A stretch of DNA of 64,000 bases from contig NZ_JAENJH010000001.1 of assembly GCF_016595675.1 (NCBI RefSeq), positions 434,001 through 498,000 on the forward strand, written 5' to 3'. Source of the DNA: Prauserella cavernicola (lineage in GTDB: Bacteria > Actinomycetota > Actinomycetes > Mycobacteriales > Pseudonocardiaceae). The notes under the pieces were generated by a model. It saw only the letters and a list, made by a program, of their open reading frames with translations. It ran no database searches and was not told the origin of the DNA. Positions 48,843-58,068 of the stretch are shown one piece after another. Position numbers and translations under genes: made by a program. Within the stretch, counting starts at the first letter, position 1. Each line of letters begins with the position of its first letter.

Positions 48843-49939
48843 GAGGCGGGCACCTCCGAGGGCAGCAGCACGACTTTGCCCTGGCTGGCTCCGGCGGCGA
48901 GCCGGTAGGCCTCGTCGGCCTGTGCGAGCAGGAACCGGTCGCTGACGACCTGCTCGGGGCGCAGGCCCCAGCGGGCGAGGTTCACGGCGAGCTCGGCCAT
49001 GGCGGGCAGCGACGTGACCCACGAGGCGTAGAGCGTCAACTGCTTGTGCAGCAACGCGTCCGACACCTCGGTCTCGAGCGTGCCACCCTCGCCGACCAGC
49101 GACACCCGGCCCCATTCGGCGGCACCGGCGATGGCCGTGGACCGGCCGGCACGGGAGCCGGAGCAGTCGATGGTGGTGATCGCGCCGGGTGCGCCGAGCG
49201 CGTCGGCGACGAGTGCCGCGGTGGCCTCGGCGTCGGACTCGGGGGCCAGGGTCGCGTCGAACACGCCGAGCCCGTCGGCCCAGGCCCGCCGCTGCGGCGA
49301 CACCTCGACCCCCACCACGCGGCGCGCGCCCATGCCCTTGCCGATCATGCCCGCGGCCAGCCCCACCGGGCCCAGCCCGACGACGAGCAGGTCGCCGTCG
49401 CCGTTCACCCGGATGCGGCGCAGGCCCTCGTAGGCGGTGCCGAAGCCGCACGCGATCAACGCGCCATCCACATAGGACAGCTCGTCGGGCAGCGGCACGC
49501 ACGTCGACTCCTCGGCCAGCACGTAATGGGCGTGCCCACCGTCGCGCTGCCAGCCGTAGGACTCGCGCTCGGGTGAGGTACAGCTGATGAAGTAGCCGCG
49601 CCGGCAGTTGTCGCACAGCCCGCAGCCCGCGATGTGGTAGACGATCACGCGGTCGCCGGTGCCGAAACGGCGGCAACCGGGCCCGGTGGCGACGATCCGG
49701 CCGGAGGGCTCGTGGCCCGCGACCACCCCGCGGTAGGCGGGTCCGTCGACCCCGCGATGCCCCTTGTGCTCGTGGTAGATGTAGCCGATGTCGGAGCCGC
49801 AGATGCCCGAGGCTCCCACCTCGATCAGCACCTGCCCCGGCCCCGGCTCGGGCACGGCCAGCTCGCGCAGCACCGCGGTCGAGTCACCGGGCAGGTACGC
49901 CCCGGTCATCCTTTGGGTCGAGGTCGTCTTCGAGCTCAT
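48839..49939 (-). CDS. Zinc-dependent medium-chain alcohol/polyol dehydrogenase
   Basis: MDR-family dehydrogenase of 366 residues. Catalytic zinc ligands are in GICGSD and AGHEPSG. The structural zinc uses the four Cys of CGLCDNCRRGYFISC. The NAD-binding motif is VVGLGPVGLAAG, with acidic VVGVEVSPQRR at the ribose position. A segment IYHEHKGHRGVDGPAYRGVV replaces the usual short loop before the catalytic His. Candidate sugar or polyol dehydrogenase starting the oxidative pathway. Its start shares one base with the permease stop (TGATG), so it is coupled to the transporter genes. Confidence 0.88.
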   Translation of the reverse strand: MSSKTTSTQRMTGAYLPGDSTAVLRELAVPEPGPGQVLIEVGASGICGSDIGYIYHEHKGHRGVDGPAYRGVVAGHEPSGRIVATGPGCRRFGTGDRVIVYHIAGCGLCDNCRRGYFISCTSPERESYGWQRDGGHAHYVLAEESTCVPLPDELSYVDGALIACGFGTAYEGLRRIRVNGDGDLLVVGLGPVGLAAGMIGKGMGARRVVGVEVSPQRRAWADGLGVFDATLAPESDAEATAALVADALGAPGAITTIDCSGSRAGRSTAIAGAAEWGRVSLVGEGGTLETEVSDALLHKQLTLYASWVTSLPAMAELAVNLARWGLRPEQVVSDRFLLAQADEAYRLAAGASQGKVVLLPSEVPAS

Positions 49940-50943
49940 CAGGTCTCCCTCGTCGCACGCGCCCGCTTGGTGATCACGACGTTCACCAGCACGGCGGCCA
50001 CGATGATCACACCGCGCACCACGTTCTGCAGGAACGAGTTGACCCCGAGCAGCACCAGCCCGTTGCTGATCACGGTGATGAAGCCGACGCCGAGCAGCGT
50101 GCCCAGCATCGTGCCCCGTCCGCCCGCCAGCGCCGTGCCACCGATGACGACCGCGGCGATCACGTCGAACTCGAGCCCGGACGCGGCGCCACCGTTGCCG
50201 GAGCCGAGTCGCGCGGCCAGCAGCACGCCGGTGATCGCCGAGAGCAGGCCGGTGGTGGCGAAGAGCAGCACCCGCACCCTGGCGAGGTTGATGCCCGCCA
50301 TGCGCGCGGCGGGCGCGTTGCCGCCGACCGCGTAGACGGAGCGGCCGTAGCCGGTGTAGCGGGCGACGTAGGCGAAGACGAAGAACAGCACCACCATGAT
50401 GATCGCGGGCGTCGGGATGCCGAGGATCGAGCCGCCGAGGGTGTTCATCAGGCCGCTCTCGGGCAGCACCACGGGCAGCGCGTCGGTCAGGTAGAGACCG
50501 AGGCCGCCGAGCGCGCTCCAGATACCGAGCGTGGCGATGAACGAGGGCACGTCGAACCGCGCGCGCAGCCAGCCGGCGAGCGCGCCCCACGCCGCACCCG
50601 CGGCGAGTGTCAGCAGGATCGCCGGGCCGATCCCGAGTCCCCATTCGGCGGCGCCCTTGGCGACGAGCACCGAGGAGAACGCGACGGCGGGGCCGATGCT
50701 GATGTCGATCTCGCCGGCGATGATCACCAGCGTCACACCCCACGCGGCGATACCGACGGTCGCGGCGTCGCGCAGCATGCCGAGCTGGTTGTCCAGGCTC
50801 AGGAACCCGGCCGCCGTGCTGCCGAGGACGACATAGAGCACGACGATCGCGGCGATCAGGCCGATCTCGTTGAGCGAACGGCCCGCGAAGGGCCTGCCCA
50901 CGCGGCCGCGACGCTGCTGCGGCGTGGTCTGGGTAGCTGTCAT
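49939..50943 (-). CDS. Ribose-type sugar ABC transporter permease
   Basis: Inner-membrane permease of 334 residues with 8-10 helices. WGVTLVIIAGEIDISIGPAVAFSSV corresponds to the GIDLSVG motif with variation. GGNAPAARMAGINLARVRVLLFATTGLLSAITGVLLAARLGSGNGG and AAVVIGGTALAGGRGTMLGTLLGVGFITVISNGLVLLGVNSFLQNVVRGVIIVAAVLVNVV complete the family pattern. Only one permease gene is present, so it probably acts as a homodimer, unlike the two-permease system to the left. Confidence 0.92.
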   Translation of the reverse strand: MTATQTTPQQRRGRVGRPFAGRSLNEIGLIAAIVVLYVVLGSTAAGFLSLDNQLGMLRDAATVGIAAWGVTLVIIAGEIDISIGPAVAFSSVLVAKGAAEWGLGIGPAILLTLAAGAAWGALAGWLRARFDVPSFIATLGIWSALGGLGLYLTDALPVVLPESGLMNTLGGSILGIPTPAIIMVVLFFVFAYVARYTGYGRSVYAVGGNAPAARMAGINLARVRVLLFATTGLLSAITGVLLAARLGSGNGGAASGLEFDVIAAVVIGGTALAGGRGTMLGTLLGVGFITVISNGLVLLGVNSFLQNVVRGVIIVAAVLVNVVITKRARATRET

Positions 50944-50964
50944 GTCTCGTTCCTTGTCGAGGTC

Positions 50965-52530
50965 TCAGGCCGCCATCGCGGCGGAGAGCACGGAATCGGT
51001 GGTGAGGTCAGCTCCGGTGAGCTCCGCGGCGACGCGGCCCTCCCGCAGGGTCAGGACGCGGTCGCACACCAGGGGCAGCTCCTCGAGCTCGCCCGAGACG
51101 AACACGATCGCGGCGCCCCCGTCGGCGAGTTCGCGCACGAGGCGGTAGATCTCGGCCTTGGCCTGCACGTCGACGCCCCGGGTGGGTTCGTCGAGCAGCA
51201 GGATGCGGCTGCCCGCGTGCAGCCAGCGGCCGATCACGGCCTTCTGCTGGTTGCCGCCGCTGAGGTTCACGATCGGGGTGCGGGCCGAGGCCGTGGCGAT
51301 GGAGAGCCGCTCGATGAGCCGCTCGGCGGCTTTGCGCACCCGGCCGGGGCGCACGGTGGGGCCCGAGCTGACGGTGGAGAACTTGGACAGCACCAGGTTC
51401 TCGTCGACGCCGAGCAGCGGCACCACGCCCTCGTCCTTGCGGTCCTCCGGGGTCATGCCGATGCCGAGCCGCTTCATCACGGCCGCGCTCGGGTGGGCGA
51501 TCTCGCGGCCCTCGACGCTGATCGTGCCGTGGGCGGCCGGGTCGAACCCCGCGAGCGCGCGCAGCACCTCGGTGCGCCCGGATCCCATGAGCCCGCCGAT
51601 GCCGAGCACTTCGCCCGCGTGCAGATCGAACGACACGTCGAGGACCTTCGGGGGCACCGCCAGCCCGCGCACCGACAGCAACGGCGTCCCGTCGCGGTCG
51701 ACGTTGCGCTCGGGCGGGCGCTCCGCCGCTCTCGCGGTGTCGCCGAGCATGAGCGAGACGATGGTGCCCGTGTCGGCGTCGCCCACGTCGACGGTGTCGA
51801 CGATGCGGCCGTCGCGCATCACTGTGGCACTGTGGGAGATCCGGCGGATCTCCTCGAGCCGGTGGCTGACGTAGAGCACGGCCACGCCCGCCGACGCGAT
51901 GCGGGTGACGGTCTCGAGCACCACGTCCACCTCGGCGGCGGCGAGCGCGCTCGTGGGCTCGTCGAGGATCAGCAGCCGCGGCTGCTCGCGCACCGCGCGG
52001 CAGATCTCGACCAGCTGCCTGCTGGCCAGCGAGAGCGACCCGACCGGGGCGTCCGGGTCGATGTCGAGCCCGAGCCGCCCGAACACGTCGGCCGCTCCCG
52101 CCCGCATCGTCGCGTAGTCGACGGCACCGCCGCGGCGCGGCCAGCGGCCGAGGTAGAGGTTCTCGGCGACGCTGAGCTCGGCGACCAGGCTCAGCTCCTG
52201 GTGCACGGTGTTGATGCCGAGCTCGGCGGCCCTGCGCACGCCGCCGTCGCCGAAGGCCTCCCCCGCCACCGTCACGGTGCCGGCGTCGGGACGCTCCACT
52301 CCGGACAGCACACGGATCAGCGTGGACTTACCGGCGCCATTGCGGCCGAGCAGCGCGCGGATCTCGCCCGCGCGGATCGACAGGTGCGCGTCGGTCAGCG
52401 CACGCACGCCCGGATAGTGCTTGGTGACCCCGTCGACCACGATGACGGTCGAGCCGCTGGCGACGTCGGCAGCCACTGCTTCTCCTTCGCTGGTTCGGTT
52501 GCTCTCCCGCTGGTTCGCGCCCGCCGTCAC
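50965..52530 (-). CDS. Ribose-type sugar ABC transporter ATP-binding protein (duplicated)
   Basis: Tandem ATPase of 521 residues. First half: Walker A GRNGAGKSTLIRVL, Q-loop HQELSLVAEL, degenerate signature LSLASRQLVEI, Walker B LLILDEPTSAL. Second half: GLMGSGRTEVL in place of a normal P-loop, signature LSGGNQQKAVIGRWL, Walker B LLLDEPTRGVDVQ. Start GTG overlaps the binding-protein stop (GTGA). Second gene of the 11-gene sugar operon. Confidence 0.93.
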   Translation of the reverse strand: MTAGANQRESNRTSEGEAVAADVASGSTVIVVDGVTKHYPGVRALTDAHLSIRAGEIRALLGRNGAGKSTLIRVLSGVERPDAGTVTVAGEAFGDGGVRRAAELGINTVHQELSLVAELSVAENLYLGRWPRRGGAVDYATMRAGAADVFGRLGLDIDPDAPVGSLSLASRQLVEICRAVREQPRLLILDEPTSALAAAEVDVVLETVTRIASAGVAVLYVSHRLEEIRRISHSATVMRDGRIVDTVDVGDADTGTIVSLMLGDTARAAERPPERNVDRDGTPLLSVRGLAVPPKVLDVSFDLHAGEVLGIGGLMGSGRTEVLRALAGFDPAAHGTISVEGREIAHPSAAVMKRLGIGMTPEDRKDEGVVPLLGVDENLVLSKFSTVSSGPTVRPGRVRKAAERLIERLSIATASARTPIVNLSGGNQQKAVIGRWLHAGSRILLLDEPTRGVDVQAKAEIYRLVRELADGGAAIVFVSGELEELPLVCDRVLTLREGRVAAELTGADLTTDSVLSAAMAA

Positions 52531-53519
52531 GGCACACCGTCCGGGTGCGTGCGCAGCCAGTCGGAACCGTCGTCGGGGGTCGCGTAGAGGTCGATCGGCG
52601 CGGGCACGACCGTGTACTCGGTGAGCTTGCCGGTGCGCACGTCGTCGGCCGCCTGTGCCGCGAGCTTGCCGACGGCGATGCCGGAGATGTCGACGACACC
52701 CTTGAGGATGTTCTCGGCGGCCAGTGCCTGCGCGGCCTCGGTGGACATGTCACTGCCGAAGACCACGGTCTGGCCGACCTTGCCGCGCGCCTGCACGGCC
52801 CGCACCGCGCCCATCGTCGCGCCACCGGCCTCGCCGTAGAACGCATCGAGGTCGGGATTGGCGGTGAGGATGCGCTCGGCGACGTCCACGGCCTCGTCGA
52901 TCGTGGCGCCCTCCTGGTTGGCCACGATCTTCGCGCCGGGCAGCTTCTCCTGCAGCGCCTGTTCGAAACCGTGCCTGCGGTCGATGCACACCTCGACGAA
53001 CTCGCAGTTGACCACCGCGATCGTCGGTTCGGTGTTGCCCTCGGCGAGGAAGTACTCCGCGGCGCGCTCCCCGAGCATGCTGCCGAAGCGCACCGGGTCG
53101 CCCAGCACGTACGCGGACACGTACTTGCGGGCGCTCTGTTCGGCGACGCAGGTGTTGTAGCAGATCACGGGGATGCCGCTCTCGTGCGCGAGTTCCAGCG
53201 CGGGCACCGACGCGGTGGCCGAGGCGGGAGAGAGGATCAGCGCGTCCACCTTCGCGGCGCTGACCTGGTCGATGAACGTGCTCTCCTTGGAGGCATCGCC
53301 CTGTGCGTTGAGCTGGAGCAGCTGCGGCGTCCTGCCGAGCGCTTCGGCCTCCTGCTGCATGCCGACCCTGACCCCGGCGTAGAAGCCCTGCGCGTCCATG
53401 TAGACGACACCGAACCGGCCGTTCTCGCCGACCTTGCCGCCGCAGGCGGCCACCATGCCGAGCAGCACGACCGCCACCAGCGCCAGGCCTGCCCGGCCAC
53501 GACGCCCCGTTGCGCCCAT
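52527..53519 (-). CDS. Sugar ABC transporter substrate-binding lipoprotein
   Basis: Lipid-anchored sugar-binding protein of 330 residues. The signal ends at GMVAACGG (lipobox VAAC). Peripla_BP_4 fold: FGVVYMDAQGFYAGVRVGMQQEAEALG, STFIDQVSAAKVDALILSPASATASVPAL, GIPVICYNTCVAEQ, IAVVNCEFVEVCIDRRHGFEQAL and FYGEAGGATMGAVRAVQARG. Three or four mature cysteines suggest disulfides, unusual for this family. It is the first gene of the 11-gene operon, about 90 bases downstream of an AT-only patch. Ligand unknown; by context a galactose-type hexose or its acid. Confidence 0.9.
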   Translation of the reverse strand: MGATGRRGRAGLALVAVVLLGMVAACGGKVGENGRFGVVYMDAQGFYAGVRVGMQQEAEALGRTPQLLQLNAQGDASKESTFIDQVSAAKVDALILSPASATASVPALELAHESGIPVICYNTCVAEQSARKYVSAYVLGDPVRFGSMLGERAAEYFLAEGNTEPTIAVVNCEFVEVCIDRRHGFEQALQEKLPGAKIVANQEGATIDEAVDVAERILTANPDLDAFYGEAGGATMGAVRAVQARGKVGQTVVFGSDMSTEAAQALAAENILKGVVDISGIAVGKLAAQAADDVRTGKLTEYTVVPAPIDLYATPDDGSDWLRTHPDGVP

Positions 53520-53625: not shown

Positions 53626-55165
53626 CTCGAACGGGTGGCCGTGGCGCTGTGAGCCGCCGGTACGGCAGGAACCGCTGGAACCCCAGCCCCCGCAACCCGG
53701 GCGTCGCCTCGATCAGCGCGGGCACCGCGTCCTCGGCCCGGAGCCGCGACTCCACCACCGCCTGATGAGCGGCCTCGTCCCGGAACTCGGCGTAGTTGAC
53801 CACGCTCGACCCGTCCACGGCGACGTGGAAGTGGTTGCTCGCCATGCCCCCGACCGGCTCGCTGTCCGGCCGCGTCGCCGGATGATGCTCGTCGAGCAGA
53901 GTGTCCACGAAGGACCGCGCCGCCCGCTGCCCGTCGGTCTCGAACGACACCAGCACCACGACGCCGGTCCGGAGCCCGGCGTCGGGAACCACACTCCGGT
54001 AACGCGTGTAGGACCCCAGCCCGTCGCGCCGGATACCGGGCACCGCGTCGTCGATCGCCCTGATCCGCTCGGGCGGATCGGTGTCGCGGAACGCCTCGAC
54101 CGCCTCGGGTCCGGTCCACTGTGAATAGTTCAGGACGGTGCGACCATCGGTGCCGAGCAGCACGCTGTGCGAGAGCAGCCCGGCGGGCCACGGCGCGTCG
54201 CCCCACGCCGCCATCGCGGCGTCCGCCGCCGCCCGCTGCCGCCGCGACGTGTCCAGCGTCCACGTACTCACCAGCGCCAGCCCGGCATCAGGGTGCTCGA
54301 TCTCGGGCGCCGGATCGGTGAACTCCGCCGCGTGCCGCGACAGCCAGTCCCCGAACGTCCGCGGCGGCCGCCCGGTGACGAGCTCGACCGTGTCCAGCAC
54401 CGGCCCCGGCTCCGCGCGCATGTCCTCAAAGGACTCACGGAACCAGTCCGCGTCGGCCTCGGTGAACCCGCTCCCCAGCAACCCGGCGCGCCAGTCACGC
54501 TCCGGTAGCTCCTCCCAGTGCAGGGGCCGGCCGATCCGCTCGGCGATCCGCGCCACCTGCTCGACCGGGGTGAGCAGGTCGCGTCCCGTCAGTTCCAGCA
54601 CCCGGCCCGCGTAGCGCTCGTCCGTCAGCGCCTCCACGGCGACCTCGGCCAGATCCCGCTCGTCGAGCAACGTCACCGGCACGTCGCCGAACGCGCCCCG
54701 CACGACGTCGCCGCCACGCGTCTGCTCCGCCCACACCAGGAGGTTGGTCGCGAACGCCGTCGGCCGCAGGAACGTCCAGCTCAGCCCGGACTCGCGGATC
54801 GCGCGCTCGATCGCGTGGTGCGAGCGGCCGATCGTGTTGTCGTAGTGCTCGACCCCGTCGCGCACCGCGGCCGAGGAGAGGAACACGACGCGGCCGGTGT
54901 GCGCGGCGATCGTGGCGTCCGCCTCCCGCGCCGCGGCCAGGTCCCCGATTCCCGGCCACATCAGAAACACCGCGTCAACACCTTCGAGTCCACGCAGCTC
55001 CCGCTGGCTGCCCCGGACCACCTCGATCGCGGACGGTAGCCGCGCGCCCTCCGGATCACGGGTCAGCGCCCGCACCCGGACCCCGCGCCGGGCCAGGCCC
55101 AGCGCCACCTCTCGCCCGACGTTGCCCGTCGCGCCCGTCACCAACACCGTCGTCGTCTCGTCCAT
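53621..55165 (-). CDS. NmrA-like NAD(P)-binding protein fused to two ABM-like domains
   Basis: Fusion protein of 514 residues. Residues 1-~290 are an NmrA/atypical SDR domain with VLVTGATGNVGREVALGLARRG, WTFLRPTAFATNLL, LDERDLAEVAVEAL and LTPVEQVARIAERIGRP, as in quinone-reductase-like NmrA proteins. Residues ~300-400 (ALVSTWTLDTSRRQRAAADAAMAAW ... VLNYSQWTGPEAVEAF) and ~405-505 (VVLVSFETDGQRAARSFVDTLL ... VVNYAEFRDEAAHQAVVE) look like two dimeric alpha-beta-barrel (antibiotic biosynthesis monooxygenase-like) repeats. A single open frame with no break supports a true fusion. Function unknown; quinone handling is a reasonable guess. Confidence 0.83.
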   Translation of the reverse strand: MDETTTVLVTGATGNVGREVALGLARRGVRVRALTRDPEGARLPSAIEVVRGSQRELRGLEGVDAVFLMWPGIGDLAAAREADATIAAHTGRVVFLSSAAVRDGVEHYDNTIGRSHHAIERAIRESGLSWTFLRPTAFATNLLVWAEQTRGGDVVRGAFGDVPVTLLDERDLAEVAVEALTDERYAGRVLELTGRDLLTPVEQVARIAERIGRPLHWEELPERDWRAGLLGSGFTEADADWFRESFEDMRAEPGPVLDTVELVTGRPPRTFGDWLSRHAAEFTDPAPEIEHPDAGLALVSTWTLDTSRRQRAAADAAMAAWGDAPWPAGLLSHSVLLGTDGRTVLNYSQWTGPEAVEAFRDTDPPERIRAIDDAVPGIRRDGLGSYTRYRSVVPDAGLRTGVVVLVSFETDGQRAARSFVDTLLDEHHPATRPDSEPVGGMASNHFHVAVDGSSVVNYAEFRDEAAHQAVVESRLRAEDAVPALIEATPGLRGLGFQRFLPYRRLTAPRPPVRD

Positions 55166-55233
55166 GCCGGTGACGCTACGAAGACCGGCCGGACGCCGAA
55201 TCCGTCAGACGACTGGGCTCCCCTCAGTCCTGC

Positions 55234-55896
55234 TCAGCCGTTGCCGCCGCCGCTGTGCGCGGCAGCCGTGTGCTGCGCCGACACCGCCTTCCGCAGCGCC
55301 GTCACCACCGGCGCGACCGACCCGCCACCCAGCTCGCCGATCCGGCCTGTGAACCGGCGGCGTTCCCGCCCACTGAACACCGCAGCCAGCTGCGCCGCCG
55401 ACGCGAGCGCCGCCAGCGCGCCGATCTCCCGATCCACCCGCCCCACGGGCTGGCTCCCGCGAACGGCCCGGCCCACCTGCTCCCCGAGCCGACGTGCCAC
55501 GTGCGGCTGGCGCAGCGTCACCCGTGTCGCGGGGAACAACCCGAGGACCCGGTGCCGCTCGACCCTCACCACCCGCGCCGCCACCAGCTCGGCGTGCACC
55601 AGCTCCATCGTGCGCGCCCGGTCCTTCGCGACCCACCGTCGCCACGCGCGCGGCGGATCCTGCTCGATCTGGTCCCACACGTGCCGCAACACCGAGTCGG
55701 CCGGACCGGGCGGCGCGGTGACGGGATGCGCCTTGTCGCCGTCGTCGGTGAGATGGCCGTGCAGCACGAGCTCCGCCAGCGCCGCGGCACGCAGGAGATG
55801 GCCCAGCTGGCCCTTGCCGGTCAACTTCTGCTTGCGCCGGTCGAACGCGAGCAGCAACGCCCTGGCCGGCAACGTGGACGTGGTGTCAGTCATCAT
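55234..55896 (-). CDS. GOLPH3/VPS74 (GPP34) family protein
   Basis: Bacterial homologue of the Golgi phosphoprotein GOLPH3, 220 residues. ALLLAFDRRKQKLTGKGQLGHLLRAAALAELVLHGHLTDDGDKAHP is the family's N-terminal signature, then WVAKDRARTMELVHAELVAARVVRVERHRVLGLFPATRVTLR and GALAALASAAQLAAVFSGRERRRFTGRI. Eukaryotic members bind PI4P and Golgi enzymes; the actinobacterial role is undefined. The start (two adjacent ATGs, 55896/55893) overlaps the preceding ribbon-helix-helix gene by 8-11 bases. Third gene of an SPFH/RHH/GOLPH3 operon. Confidence 0.87.
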   Translation of the reverse strand: MMTDTTSTLPARALLLAFDRRKQKLTGKGQLGHLLRAAALAELVLHGHLTDDGDKAHPVTAPPGPADSVLRHVWDQIEQDPPRAWRRWVAKDRARTMELVHAELVAARVVRVERHRVLGLFPATRVTLRQPHVARRLGEQVGRAVRGSQPVGRVDREIGALAALASAAQLAAVFSGRERRRFTGRIGELGGGSVAPVVTALRKAVSAQHTAAAHSGGGNG

Positions 55897-56107
55897 CACC
55901 GTCTCCCTCCGTCGTGGATTTGCGTGGCCGCCCTGGCGACCGGATCTTGCCCACCCCGCCCGGCAGGCGGCCCGCGTCGGCGAGCGCCTTCCGCAACAGG
56001 AACTCGATCTGCGCGTTGGTGCTCCGCAGCTCGTCGCCCGCCCATCGCGCGAGCGCGTCGTGCACCACGGGATCGAGGCGCAACAGGAGTTTCTTGCGTT
56101 CGGCCAC
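55886..56107 (-). CDS. Ribbon-helix-helix (CopG/Arc-like) small protein
   Basis: A 73-residue protein: VAERKKLLLRLDPVVHDALARWAGDELRSTNAQIEFLLRKALADAG, a strand-helix-helix DNA-binding module, followed by a basic then acidic tail (GRPRKSTTEGDGDDD). Dimers of this fold bind short palindromes and often autoregulate. GTG at 56107 lies 5 bases past the SPFH stop, and its 3' end overlaps the GOLPH3 gene, so it is locked into this operon. The GTGATATCAC palindrome in the operon promoter is its likely target. Confidence 0.8.
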   Translation of the reverse strand: MAERKKLLLRLDPVVHDALARWAGDELRSTNAQIEFLLRKALADAGRLPGGVGKIRSPGRPRKSTTEGDGDDD

Positions 56108-56112
56108 GGCAA

Positions 56113-57021
56113 CTACTGGTAGAGCGTCCCGGAGTTCACGACCGGCTGGGCATCCCGGTCGCTGACCAGCACCACGAGCAGGTTGCTCACCATGGCGGCC
56201 TTGCGCTCCTCGTCGAGCTCGACGACGTCGTTCTCGGCGAGCTTGTCCAGCGCCTGCTCCACCATGCCGACGGCGCCCTCCACGATCCGCTGCCGCGCCG
56301 CGACGACGGCGCCCGCCTGCTGGCGGCGCAGCATCGCCTGCGCGATCTCCGGCGCGTAGGCCAGGTGCGTGATGCGCGACTCGATCACCTGCACGCCCGC
56401 CGACGCCACGCGCGCCCCGATCTCCTCCGAGAGCCTCTCCGTGATCTCGTCGGCGTTGTCGCGCAACGAGAGCCCGTGTCCGTCGTGGATGTCGTACGGG
56501 TAGGCGTTGGCGATGTGGCGCACGGCGGTCTCGGTCTGGATCGCGACGAACTCCACGAAGTCGTCCACTTCGAACAGTGCCTGCGCGGTGTCGCGGACCT
56601 GCCACACCACCACGGCGGCGATCTCGATCGGGTTGCCGTCGGCGTCGTTGACCTTGGCGACGTCGCTCTCGTGGTTGCGGATCCGGGTGGACACCCTGCG
56701 CCGCACGGTGAACGGGTTCACCCACTGCAGGCCGTCCCTGCGCACCGTGCCCGTGTACTTGCCGAGCAGCTGGATCACCCGCGCCTCGCCCGGTGCGACC
56801 GGCGTCAGCCCCGCGAGCAGCACGAGGCCGGCGAGAGTCGCCAGTGCGCCGAGCACGATCACCAGCGCGGTGCCGCCGATTCCGCCCACGACGACCAGCG
56901 CCGTGCCGCCGAACACCAGCACGGCACTCACGCCGAGCATCGCGAACCCGGACACCGCCCTCGCCTGCCGCTCCCCGACCTTGGGCGTCGGCATCGCCAC
57001 TGCGGTCTCGGTGATCGTCAT
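56113..57021 (-). CDS. SPFH/Band 7 domain membrane protein
   Basis: Membrane-organising protein of 302 residues. Two N-terminal hydrophobic segments (residues ~25-70, [24 protein letters not shown] and [21 protein letters not shown]) anchor it. The SPFH domain follows: [133 protein letters not shown]. This is close to stomatin/QmcA-like proteins. ATG at 57021 is preferred over upstream ATGs because they leave no room for a ribosome site. First gene of the operon, with a promoter at 57074-57102. Confidence 0.88.
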
Positions 57022-57073
57022 GGACCCCATCCCTTCCCCGTGCGGACGCGTCCCCGCGTCCCGTTCGAACGAC

Positions 57074-57089
57074 ATCATAGTGATATCAC
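57074..57089 (-). promoter_or_regulatory. Promoter with embedded palindrome before the SPFH operon
   Basis: On the minus strand TATGAT (57074-57079) is a near-consensus -10 element. Immediately upstream of it, filling the -35/-10 spacer, is the perfect 10-bp palindrome GTGATATCAC (57080-57089). A repressor bound there would block polymerase. The small ribbon-helix-helix protein of the operon is the natural candidate. The -35 region (TCATCC) is weak. Confidence 0.6.
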
Positions 57090-57138
57090 ATTTTGGGGAT
57101 GACGGGGGAGTGCCCCGAGCACGAAGCAGGAACGCGCC

Positions 57139-58068
57139 TCAGGTGAGCAGGGCGACCAGCACGAACATCACGGGCATGCTCACCAGCGTCGTCAGCAGCA
57201 CGGCGTCCCGGCTGATCGCGACACCCTGGTCGTAGCGCACCGCGTAGCCGAACACGTTCTGCGCCGTCGGCAACGCCGCGCACACGACGACCACCAGCAG
57301 CCCGTGCCCGTCGAGGCCCAGCATCAACCCCAGCAGCAGTCCCAGCAACGGGTGCACGATCGTCTTGATCAGCACCACCGACAGCAACAGCGGCATCATT
57401 TCGCCCCGCCGCAGCGGCCACGCCGCCGACCGCAACGAGATGCCGAACGCCAGCAACATCCCCGGCACGGCCAGATCGGCCAGCAACTCGATCGGCGCCA
57501 TCACCGGCTCGGGCGGCACGATCCCGGTACCCGACGCGAGCAGACCAGCCGCCGTGGCGACCGCGATCGGATTGCGCAGCGGAGCCGTCACCGCGCGCAG
57601 GATCCGCGGCCTGCCACCGTTGGCCCGCTCCGAGAGCACGTCGAGCACGGTCGTGAACACCGGTGTCAGCACCGCGAGCTGGAACAGCAGCACCGGCGCC
57701 ACCTCGGCGGCATTACCGAACACGTACGTCGCGATCGGCAAGCCCAGATTGCCCGCGTTGACGTACCCGCTCGCCATCGACGCCATCGCGGTCTCCCCCG
57801 CGGGCCTGCGCCGCAACAGTCCGATGGGGACGTACGCCGCGCACGCCAGCGTGCTCGTCACACCCGTGACGACGAGATCCTCGGAGAACACGGCCCCGAC
57901 GTCGGCGTGGGCCAGCGTGGTGAACAACAGTGCGGGACTCGCGACGAAGAACGCGGTGCGCGACAGCACCTGCGTCGCGTGCGGACCCAGCACACCGGTG
58001 CGGCCCACGACATAACCCACCAGTACGACGACCCCGATGACCAGGAAACCCTGGACGACCCCGTTCAC
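57139..58068 (-). CDS. AEC family transporter (auxin efflux carrier-like)
   Basis: Inner-membrane transporter of 309 residues with about ten helices in two five-helix halves. N-terminal VVQGFLVIGVVVLVGYVVGRTGVLGPHATQVLSRTAFFVASPALLFTTLA, central ASGYVNAGNLGLPIATYVFGNAAEVAPVLLFQLAVLTP and the ending LPTAQNVFGYAVRYDQGVAISRDAVLLTTLVSMPVMFVLVALL are standard AEC blocks. Bacterial members export or import organic acids such as malate or malonate. It lies downstream of an SDR gene with a hairpin between them. Substrate unknown. Confidence 0.9.
   Translation of the reverse strand: MNGVVQGFLVIGVVVLVGYVVGRTGVLGPHATQVLSRTAFFVASPALLFTTLAHADVGAVFSEDLVVTGVTSTLACAAYVPIGLLRRRPAGETAMASMASGYVNAGNLGLPIATYVFGNAAEVAPVLLFQLAVLTPVFTTVLDVLSERANGGRPRILRAVTAPLRNPIAVATAAGLLASGTGIVPPEPVMAPIELLADLAVPGMLLAFGISLRSAAWPLRRGEMMPLLLSVVLIKTIVHPLLGLLLGLMLGLDGHGLLVVVVCAALPTAQNVFGYAVRYDQGVAISRDAVLLTTLVSMPVMFVLVALLT

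Follow-up and report, generated by a model that had tools for sequence, protein, structure and literature searches.

A putative autoregulated SPFH membrane-scaffold operon with a candidate ribbon-helix-helix repressor and a conserved operator

In a 64,000-nucleotide stretch of the Prauserella cavernicola genome (the window; contig NZ_JAENJH010000001.1, positions 434,001 to 498,000), we found a minus-strand operon that encodes an SPFH membrane protein, a small ribbon-helix-helix (RHH) protein, and a GPP34 (GOLPH3-like) protein. Judged from gene order and sequence, the conserved unit is the SPFH gene together with the RHH gene and a DNA operator, and it occurs across distant phyla. We consider it probable, at roughly 0.6, that this is an autoregulated membrane-scaffold operon in which the RHH protein would serve as autorepressor and dock on the C-terminal tail of the SPFH protein, with GPP34 as an add-on. 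A first, sequence-only reading of the window had described the three genes as one coupled operon, and the layout agrees with it: 5 nucleotides separate the SPFH stop from the RHH start, and the GPP34 gene overlaps the RHH stop by 8 to 11 nucleotides, depending on which of two ATGs is chosen.

The same reading took the trio as the unit, a view that we dropped on the gene counts, as RHH lies directly downstream in 227 of 233 distinct SPFH loci and GPP34 was detected in 45. These loci were pooled from order, named-genome, class, and phylum searches after seven duplicates had been removed; the class search contributed 75 further main-family regions, with 13 distant-paralog rows (E about 1e-41 to 1e-48) and a contig-end copy (G840:C142) left out, and the phylum search contributed 5 of the 12 main-family rows not yet represented by a locus. 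Counted as RHH bearing are the Kutzneria locus (L077), whose RHH gene lies elsewhere in the genome, and L032, whose RHH frame is broken. In the order, this SPFH protein was found in 21 of 150 genomes at E up to 1e-30, and RHH stands next in line after it in 20 of the 21, L032 with its broken RHH frame being one of these 20. The scan of named genomes, taken as its best 80 loci, returned Actinomycetota, Gammaproteobacteria, one metagenome-assembled genome of the Acidobacteriota and one of the Alphaproteobacteria, and here RHH follows SPFH in 77 loci and GPP34 in 13; records from a plasmid collection extend the SPFH family to Deinococcota, Bacteroidota, and Bacillota. The spacing between SPFH and RHH is highly variable among loci, and because the loci were found with SPFH profiles, RHH-poor branches may be undersampled. 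That the trio reaches beyond close relatives was borne out by its neighborhoods, as it recurs in Nonomuraea, Kribbella, Actinoplanes, Actinomadura, Embleya, Kitasatospora, Pseudofrankia, and others.

The promoter of the SPFH gene carries the palindrome GTGATATCAC, of which the 7.2 Mb genome has 2 copies, one at this promoter. A box matrix was derived from the loci of the order and applied at a threshold that 1% of dinucleotide-shuffled sequences exceed, with downstream stretches as controls. On this basis, TGATATCA-type sites were found before SPFH in 192 of 207 held-out RHH-bearing loci and in 1 of 224 control stretches. Across 225 aligned sites, conservation within the eight-position box is 98% or more at six positions, 97% at one, and 86% at another; the sites were picked by the matrix, so that conservation of the box is partly by construction, and the flank was unselected. 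The motif TG[AC]TA stands at +11 in 129 of the 225 aligned loci, at +22 in 11, and at any of the remaining offsets between 8 and 30 in 0 to 2, and the half-box of the window is one base off this motif. Complete second boxes are present in several other phyla, 11-bp tandem boxes occur in most Proteobacteria among the named loci and in a Clostridia record, and the Bacteroidota records show variant tandem boxes (the last two observations being made partly by eye). Exact AGTGATATCAC sites number 21 across 21 genomes (overlapping strand matches merged by hand), and 15 of them lie at the SPFH promoter, so that RHH has the look of a local regulator dedicated to this operon and not of one with a regulon; no shared target gene was evident at the 5 of 6 off-promoter sites that were inspected. 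Both chance occurrence and a global regulon site were dropped as explanations of the palindrome on the genome copy number, the held-out and control counts, and the 21-genome count. We strongly infer, from the conservation of these sites, that RHH binds operator DNA, and it very probably switches the shared SPFH operon promoter off. The earlier suggestion that a palindrome in the promoter spacer could be occupied by the small protein is upheld as regards the promoter and very probable binding, while its placement in the spacer is plausible but unproven, no consensus sigma-70 promoter having been called in 54900-57400. Among the papers listed for GTGATATCAC, judged from titles and abstract openings, we met none that was related.

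The small protein is assigned to the RHH family because its relatives match: the Pfam family RHH_5 is matched at E up to 1 by 26 of the 28 members of the RHH alignment (A2, window protein included), at best with 5e-6, while the window copy alone is subthreshold (RHH_5, E 0.016). When the profile of this alignment was compared with PDB, the top match was pArc (1u9p), at E 2.9e-4 over two stretches, and the Arc repressor itself was matched at E 0.081. The C-terminal tail of the RHH protein holds a GRP motif (SPGRPRK in the window) that we take to be AT-hook-like. GRP is found in 182 of 227 RHH proteins (the remainder includes a few cut or broken ones) and is associated with the absence of a second near-perfect box, an association that is confounded by ancestry.

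The SPFH model consists of two hydrophobic helices, the SPFH domain, a long helix, and a tail (residues 308-321) with a predicted local distance difference test score (pLDDT) below 50. Among solved folds, the model is nearest to human stomatin (Foldseek E 6.7e-14), so that the fold is stomatin-like. Were both ends of the hairpin on the inner side, the tail and RHH would share the cytoplasm, and a C terminus that is conserved yet predicted to be disordered would fit a docking peptide. In RHH-bearing SPFH proteins the tail typically reads ...VVNTG(S/T)LYQ. The strict pattern G[ST]L is found near the end of 223 of 228 SPFH proteins with RHH, the remaining five having SSLY, GSIY, or GTIY forms, and in 0 of 5 without it; the relaxed pattern [GS][ST][LI], set after inspection of these five exceptions, covers 228 of 228, and a Fisher test of tail against RHH ignores relatedness. 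On a divergent branch (L145-L147, relatives of L258), the SPFH tails read VVNVGTL(T/A/S)R, the RHH proteins start with RKQFPLRI, and the boxes are kept; tail and RHH may have diverged together there.

Loci in which RHH is no longer beside SPFH are informative for the proposed contact. In Brevibacterium (L111 and L113), L038, L258, and L259, RHH was found neither beside SPFH nor genome-wide at anything better than E 0.0067; no site exceeds the operator threshold at these five loci, and their SPFH proteins end in ...VVNTGTSVI, ...TISTTRNQQS(A/E)G, ...VVNVGSSD, or ...VVNTGTP. A tree built without the tail from 94 of 246 sequences requires five changes of RHH state, which we read as losses, at least four of them by well-supported branches. 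In Kutzneria, RHH is a lone gene elsewhere in the genome (L183:1507-1760; 74% identity) with an operator-like element, GTGATATC, in its own upstream DNA (by eye), and the SPFH gene retains operator and tail despite this relocation. We had entertained the idea that the tail is conserved as a ribosome-binding effect for RHH and dropped it, since the Kutzneria tail is kept without RHH downstream and the spacing varies widely.

The association was also used for prediction in 13 plasmid records, of which 7 were predicted before their DNA was read and the other six were partly known from annotation. The rule was that an SPFH match ending at residue 319-321 means that RHH is present and a stop at 317 means that it is not, and it held in 13 of 13 records: RHH was detected in all 10 for which it was expected and in none of the 3 others. 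Since the prediction had been made from the match end, RHH presence alone counts as the test. When the tail sequences themselves were read, 9 of the 10 records with RHH showed the pattern and 0 of the 3 without it did, one of these three being the broken gene of L329. Boxes of the TGATATCA type, variants included, were seen by eye in all 10 RHH-bearing records and in 0 of the 3 others, with a single-box site in Bosea and an irregularly spaced pair in Rhizobium as oddities of layout. L329 (NZ_CP151545.1) is a Pseudomonas aeruginosa plasmid that carries a broken relative of the SPFH gene, with no RHH found in the stretch examined; on account of the broken frame it was left out of the tree and of the core-conservation comparison given below.

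Several observations weigh against the proposed operon. At the DNA level, 15 RHH-bearing test loci (10 Streptomyces, 4 genomes of one family, and 1 gammaproteobacterium) fall below the operator threshold and show near-palindromes such as GTGTAATCAC, the weakest being CTGCTAACAC in L089; L258 is without RHH yet has a site just under the threshold, CTGATAGCAC; and the -10 element may account for part of the +11 half-box signal. At the protein level, the RHH monomer, modeled as a single chain, is one long helix without a significant fold match, Bosea (L320) has RHH together with a degenerate tail, GNVHG, and the docking step rests on about five loss events. Moreover, the Brevibacterium SPFH protein has also changed in the stretch before the tail, so that the relaxation may be broader. 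The last two points, and the fact that the operator evidence is independent of tail contact, would suit an explanation in which RHH is a plain autorepressor that never touches SPFH, while the tail serves another partner or a degradation signal and decays once the regulated system is abandoned. We regard this as rather unlikely, as the leucine end is lost in all seven assessable RHH-less SPFH proteins (the five loci and two Deinococcus proteins), which keep 73 to 82 of 88 conserved core columns, and is kept in 13 of the 14 RHH-bearing SPFH proteins with the lowest core conservation (0.57 to 0.85), and as the Kutzneria tail, kept with RHH encoded elsewhere, argues against any ribosome-binding or overlap effect in cis.

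For an autoregulated operon with tail docking, we envisage that RHH covers the core promoter at the TGATATCA boxes and represses the operon, a step strongly inferred from sequence. The stomatin-like SPFH protein would sit in the membrane by its N-terminal hairpin, with the SPFH domain probably facing the cytoplasm, and would assemble into a ring or cage, and its disordered tail, V-N-x-G-S/T-L-Y, would dock RHH, as the repeated joint loss suggests. Most likely the tail would keep RHH at the membrane and off the operator, relieving repression, and the scaffold would tune its own expression through its amount or its state of assembly; alternatively, the sign could be the reverse, with co-repression as in RelBE. 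GPP34 would stand outside this switch as a dedicated accessory in actinobacteria, probably acting as a membrane adaptor that is brought to the scaffold. We more tentatively entertain the possibility of a membrane-state switch in at least six phyla, in which the scaffold would display many copies of the tail peptide that capture a dedicated RHH repressor, so that its assembly or disruption would directly set operon transcription through the 11-bp-phased TGATATCA operator, with the GOLPH3-type adaptor added later in actinobacteria.

Membrane sequestration of regulators is known from PutA, Mlc-PtsG, and PspA-PspF, in which the regulator's access to DNA is governed by a membrane-bound protein, as we propose here; to our knowledge, none of these involves an SPFH scaffold. 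The SPFH-NfeD operons (QmcA-YbbJ and YuaG-YuaF) likewise encode an SPFH protein of stomatin-type fold with a small conserved partner, and QmcA-YbbJ (8z5g) is among the fold matches of our SPFH model, but the partner here is a DNA-binding RHH protein instead of a membrane NfeD protein, and a DNA operator and a C-terminal tail are conserved with it. NfeD was not met among the operon and flanking genes, where the partners are RHH and GPP34, although no search was aimed at it. In its accessible part, a 2009 survey of prokaryotic SPFH operons describes NfeD partners as conserved and the accompanying genes of other subgroups as without identifiable conservation with other SPFH operons (PMC2636767). 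StlP, a stomatin-like protein, is linked to a phenotype under hyperosmotic stress in the accessible parts of two reports (PMC12402492 and PMC13238533), a link that is suggestive only, StlP being no more than a possible member of this SPFH family.

With the autorepressors Arc, RelB, and ParD, the operon shares a small RHH protein, palindromic boxes 11 bp apart, and probable autoregulation; unlike them, it pairs the regulator with a membrane scaffold rather than a toxin, and the docking element would be the C terminus of the partner. In RelBE, according to the accessible part of one report, the partner modulates repression (PMC2812701). The likeness, together with the tight coupling of the genes, a tail peptide that could bind the partner, and the annotation of one relative's RHH as a HicB-family antitoxin, raises the question of whether RHH is an antitoxin and SPFH its toxic partner. 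This strikes us as highly improbable, since SPFH has persisted through about five losses of RHH, something not to be expected of a toxic SPFH unless loss of the tail detoxified it, and since the gene order is opposite to that of most such pairs.

The sequence-only reading had placed the GOLPH3 homologue at the center, as a reader of a phosphoinositide. Profile A3 of the GPP34 proteins does match human GOLPH3 (3kn1) at E 2.9e-6, and the domain is shared with GOLPH3/Vps74 and Streptomyces SCO4440. The phosphatidylinositol 4-phosphate-binding pocket of human GOLPH3, which we take to be W81, R90, R171, and R174, is only partly kept: the window protein retains the R90 equivalent and, unlike human GOLPH3, has E98 and H101 at the other two basic positions (1 of 3 kept), and the replacement of this pair weakens the phosphoinositide idea for the window protein. 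Arginine is found at the first of these positions in 7 of 14 sequences and at the second in 12 of 14, and none of the 14 aligned GPP34 sequences has a tryptophan in the pocket region. A bacterial membrane-sorting system centered on GOLPH3, with the three proteins acting together and an inositol lipid being read, appears very improbable to us even though the trio recurs in several actinobacterial families and its GPP34 proteins cluster, for GPP34 was undetected in 188 of 233 loci, and SCO4440 is described, in the accessible part of the source, as adjoining a carboxypeptidase gene. In a tree that included 26 of the 45 operon copies, these 26 and 4 unlinked paralogs are separated from 14 further paralogs with support of 100/100, forming a clade separate from most sampled actinobacterial GPP34 paralogs; on this grouping and its presence in 45 of 233 loci, we regard GPP34 as a largely dedicated but optional actinobacterial addition. 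GPP34 is expanded in the host genome, which has 8 such genes compared with 1 to 3 in seven other actinomycete genomes examined; it also has 4 Band_7 genes, and by coordinates only the SPFH gene of the window adjoins GPP34.

The pairing of SPFH with RHH is apparently undescribed, as we met no description of the pair or the trio in the literature searched, most subscription papers being outside its reach, and to this extent the earlier remark that the trio has no described function is confirmed. SPFH proteins are widespread, and how cells sense the state of an SPFH scaffold is largely open; here gene order, an operator kept across phyla, and a tail that is lost whenever the repressor is lost link a candidate repressor to one SPFH family. 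The operator could serve directly as a reporter and the tail as an interface for testing, and the proposal gives a functional hypothesis for small proteins that are annotated as antitoxin-like, Arc-family, or hypothetical, while placing the actinobacterial GOLPH3-like proteins in one testable context.

Table 1. Features of the operon and its promoter region, in window coordinates
Feature	Position	Strand	Remarks
SPFH/Band_7 membrane protein gene	56113-57021	minus	ATG start at 57021 suggested by alignment with relatives; the open frame itself reaches back to 57078
Two predicted hydrophobic helices, residues 44-68 and 71-89 of P0001 (likely membrane hairpin)	56812-56949	minus	Model and hydrophobic composition
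Conserved C-terminal tail, 10 codons (proposed RHH docking peptide)	56116-56145	minus	Leucine end kept with RHH, lost without; pLDDT below 50
RHH gene, small Arc-like protein (proposed dedicated autorepressor)	55886-56107	minus	GTG start
GPP34/GOLPH3-like gene (optional third gene)	55234-55896	minus	Overlaps RHH stop
Operator palindrome GTGATATCAC (probable RHH binding site)	57080-57089	.	Kept in relatives far above shuffles and controls
Box TGATATCA within the operator palindrome	57081-57088		
Degenerate second half-box TGATGTCG	57070-57077	minus	11 bp after first box; overlaps -10-like TATGAT

Among the window proteins, Pfam recognized Band_7 (E 6.5e-25) and GPP34 (E 7.7e-36), NCBIfam gave subthreshold matches only, and no PADLOC-type defense system was matched at E up to 0.1. 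The genes flanking the operon encode NmrA-like and Mem_trans proteins according to Pfam. Farther away in the window, 49939-53519 holds apparent sugar-type ABC transporter genes (permease, ATPase, and binding protein, identified by eye), which are unrelated to the operon.
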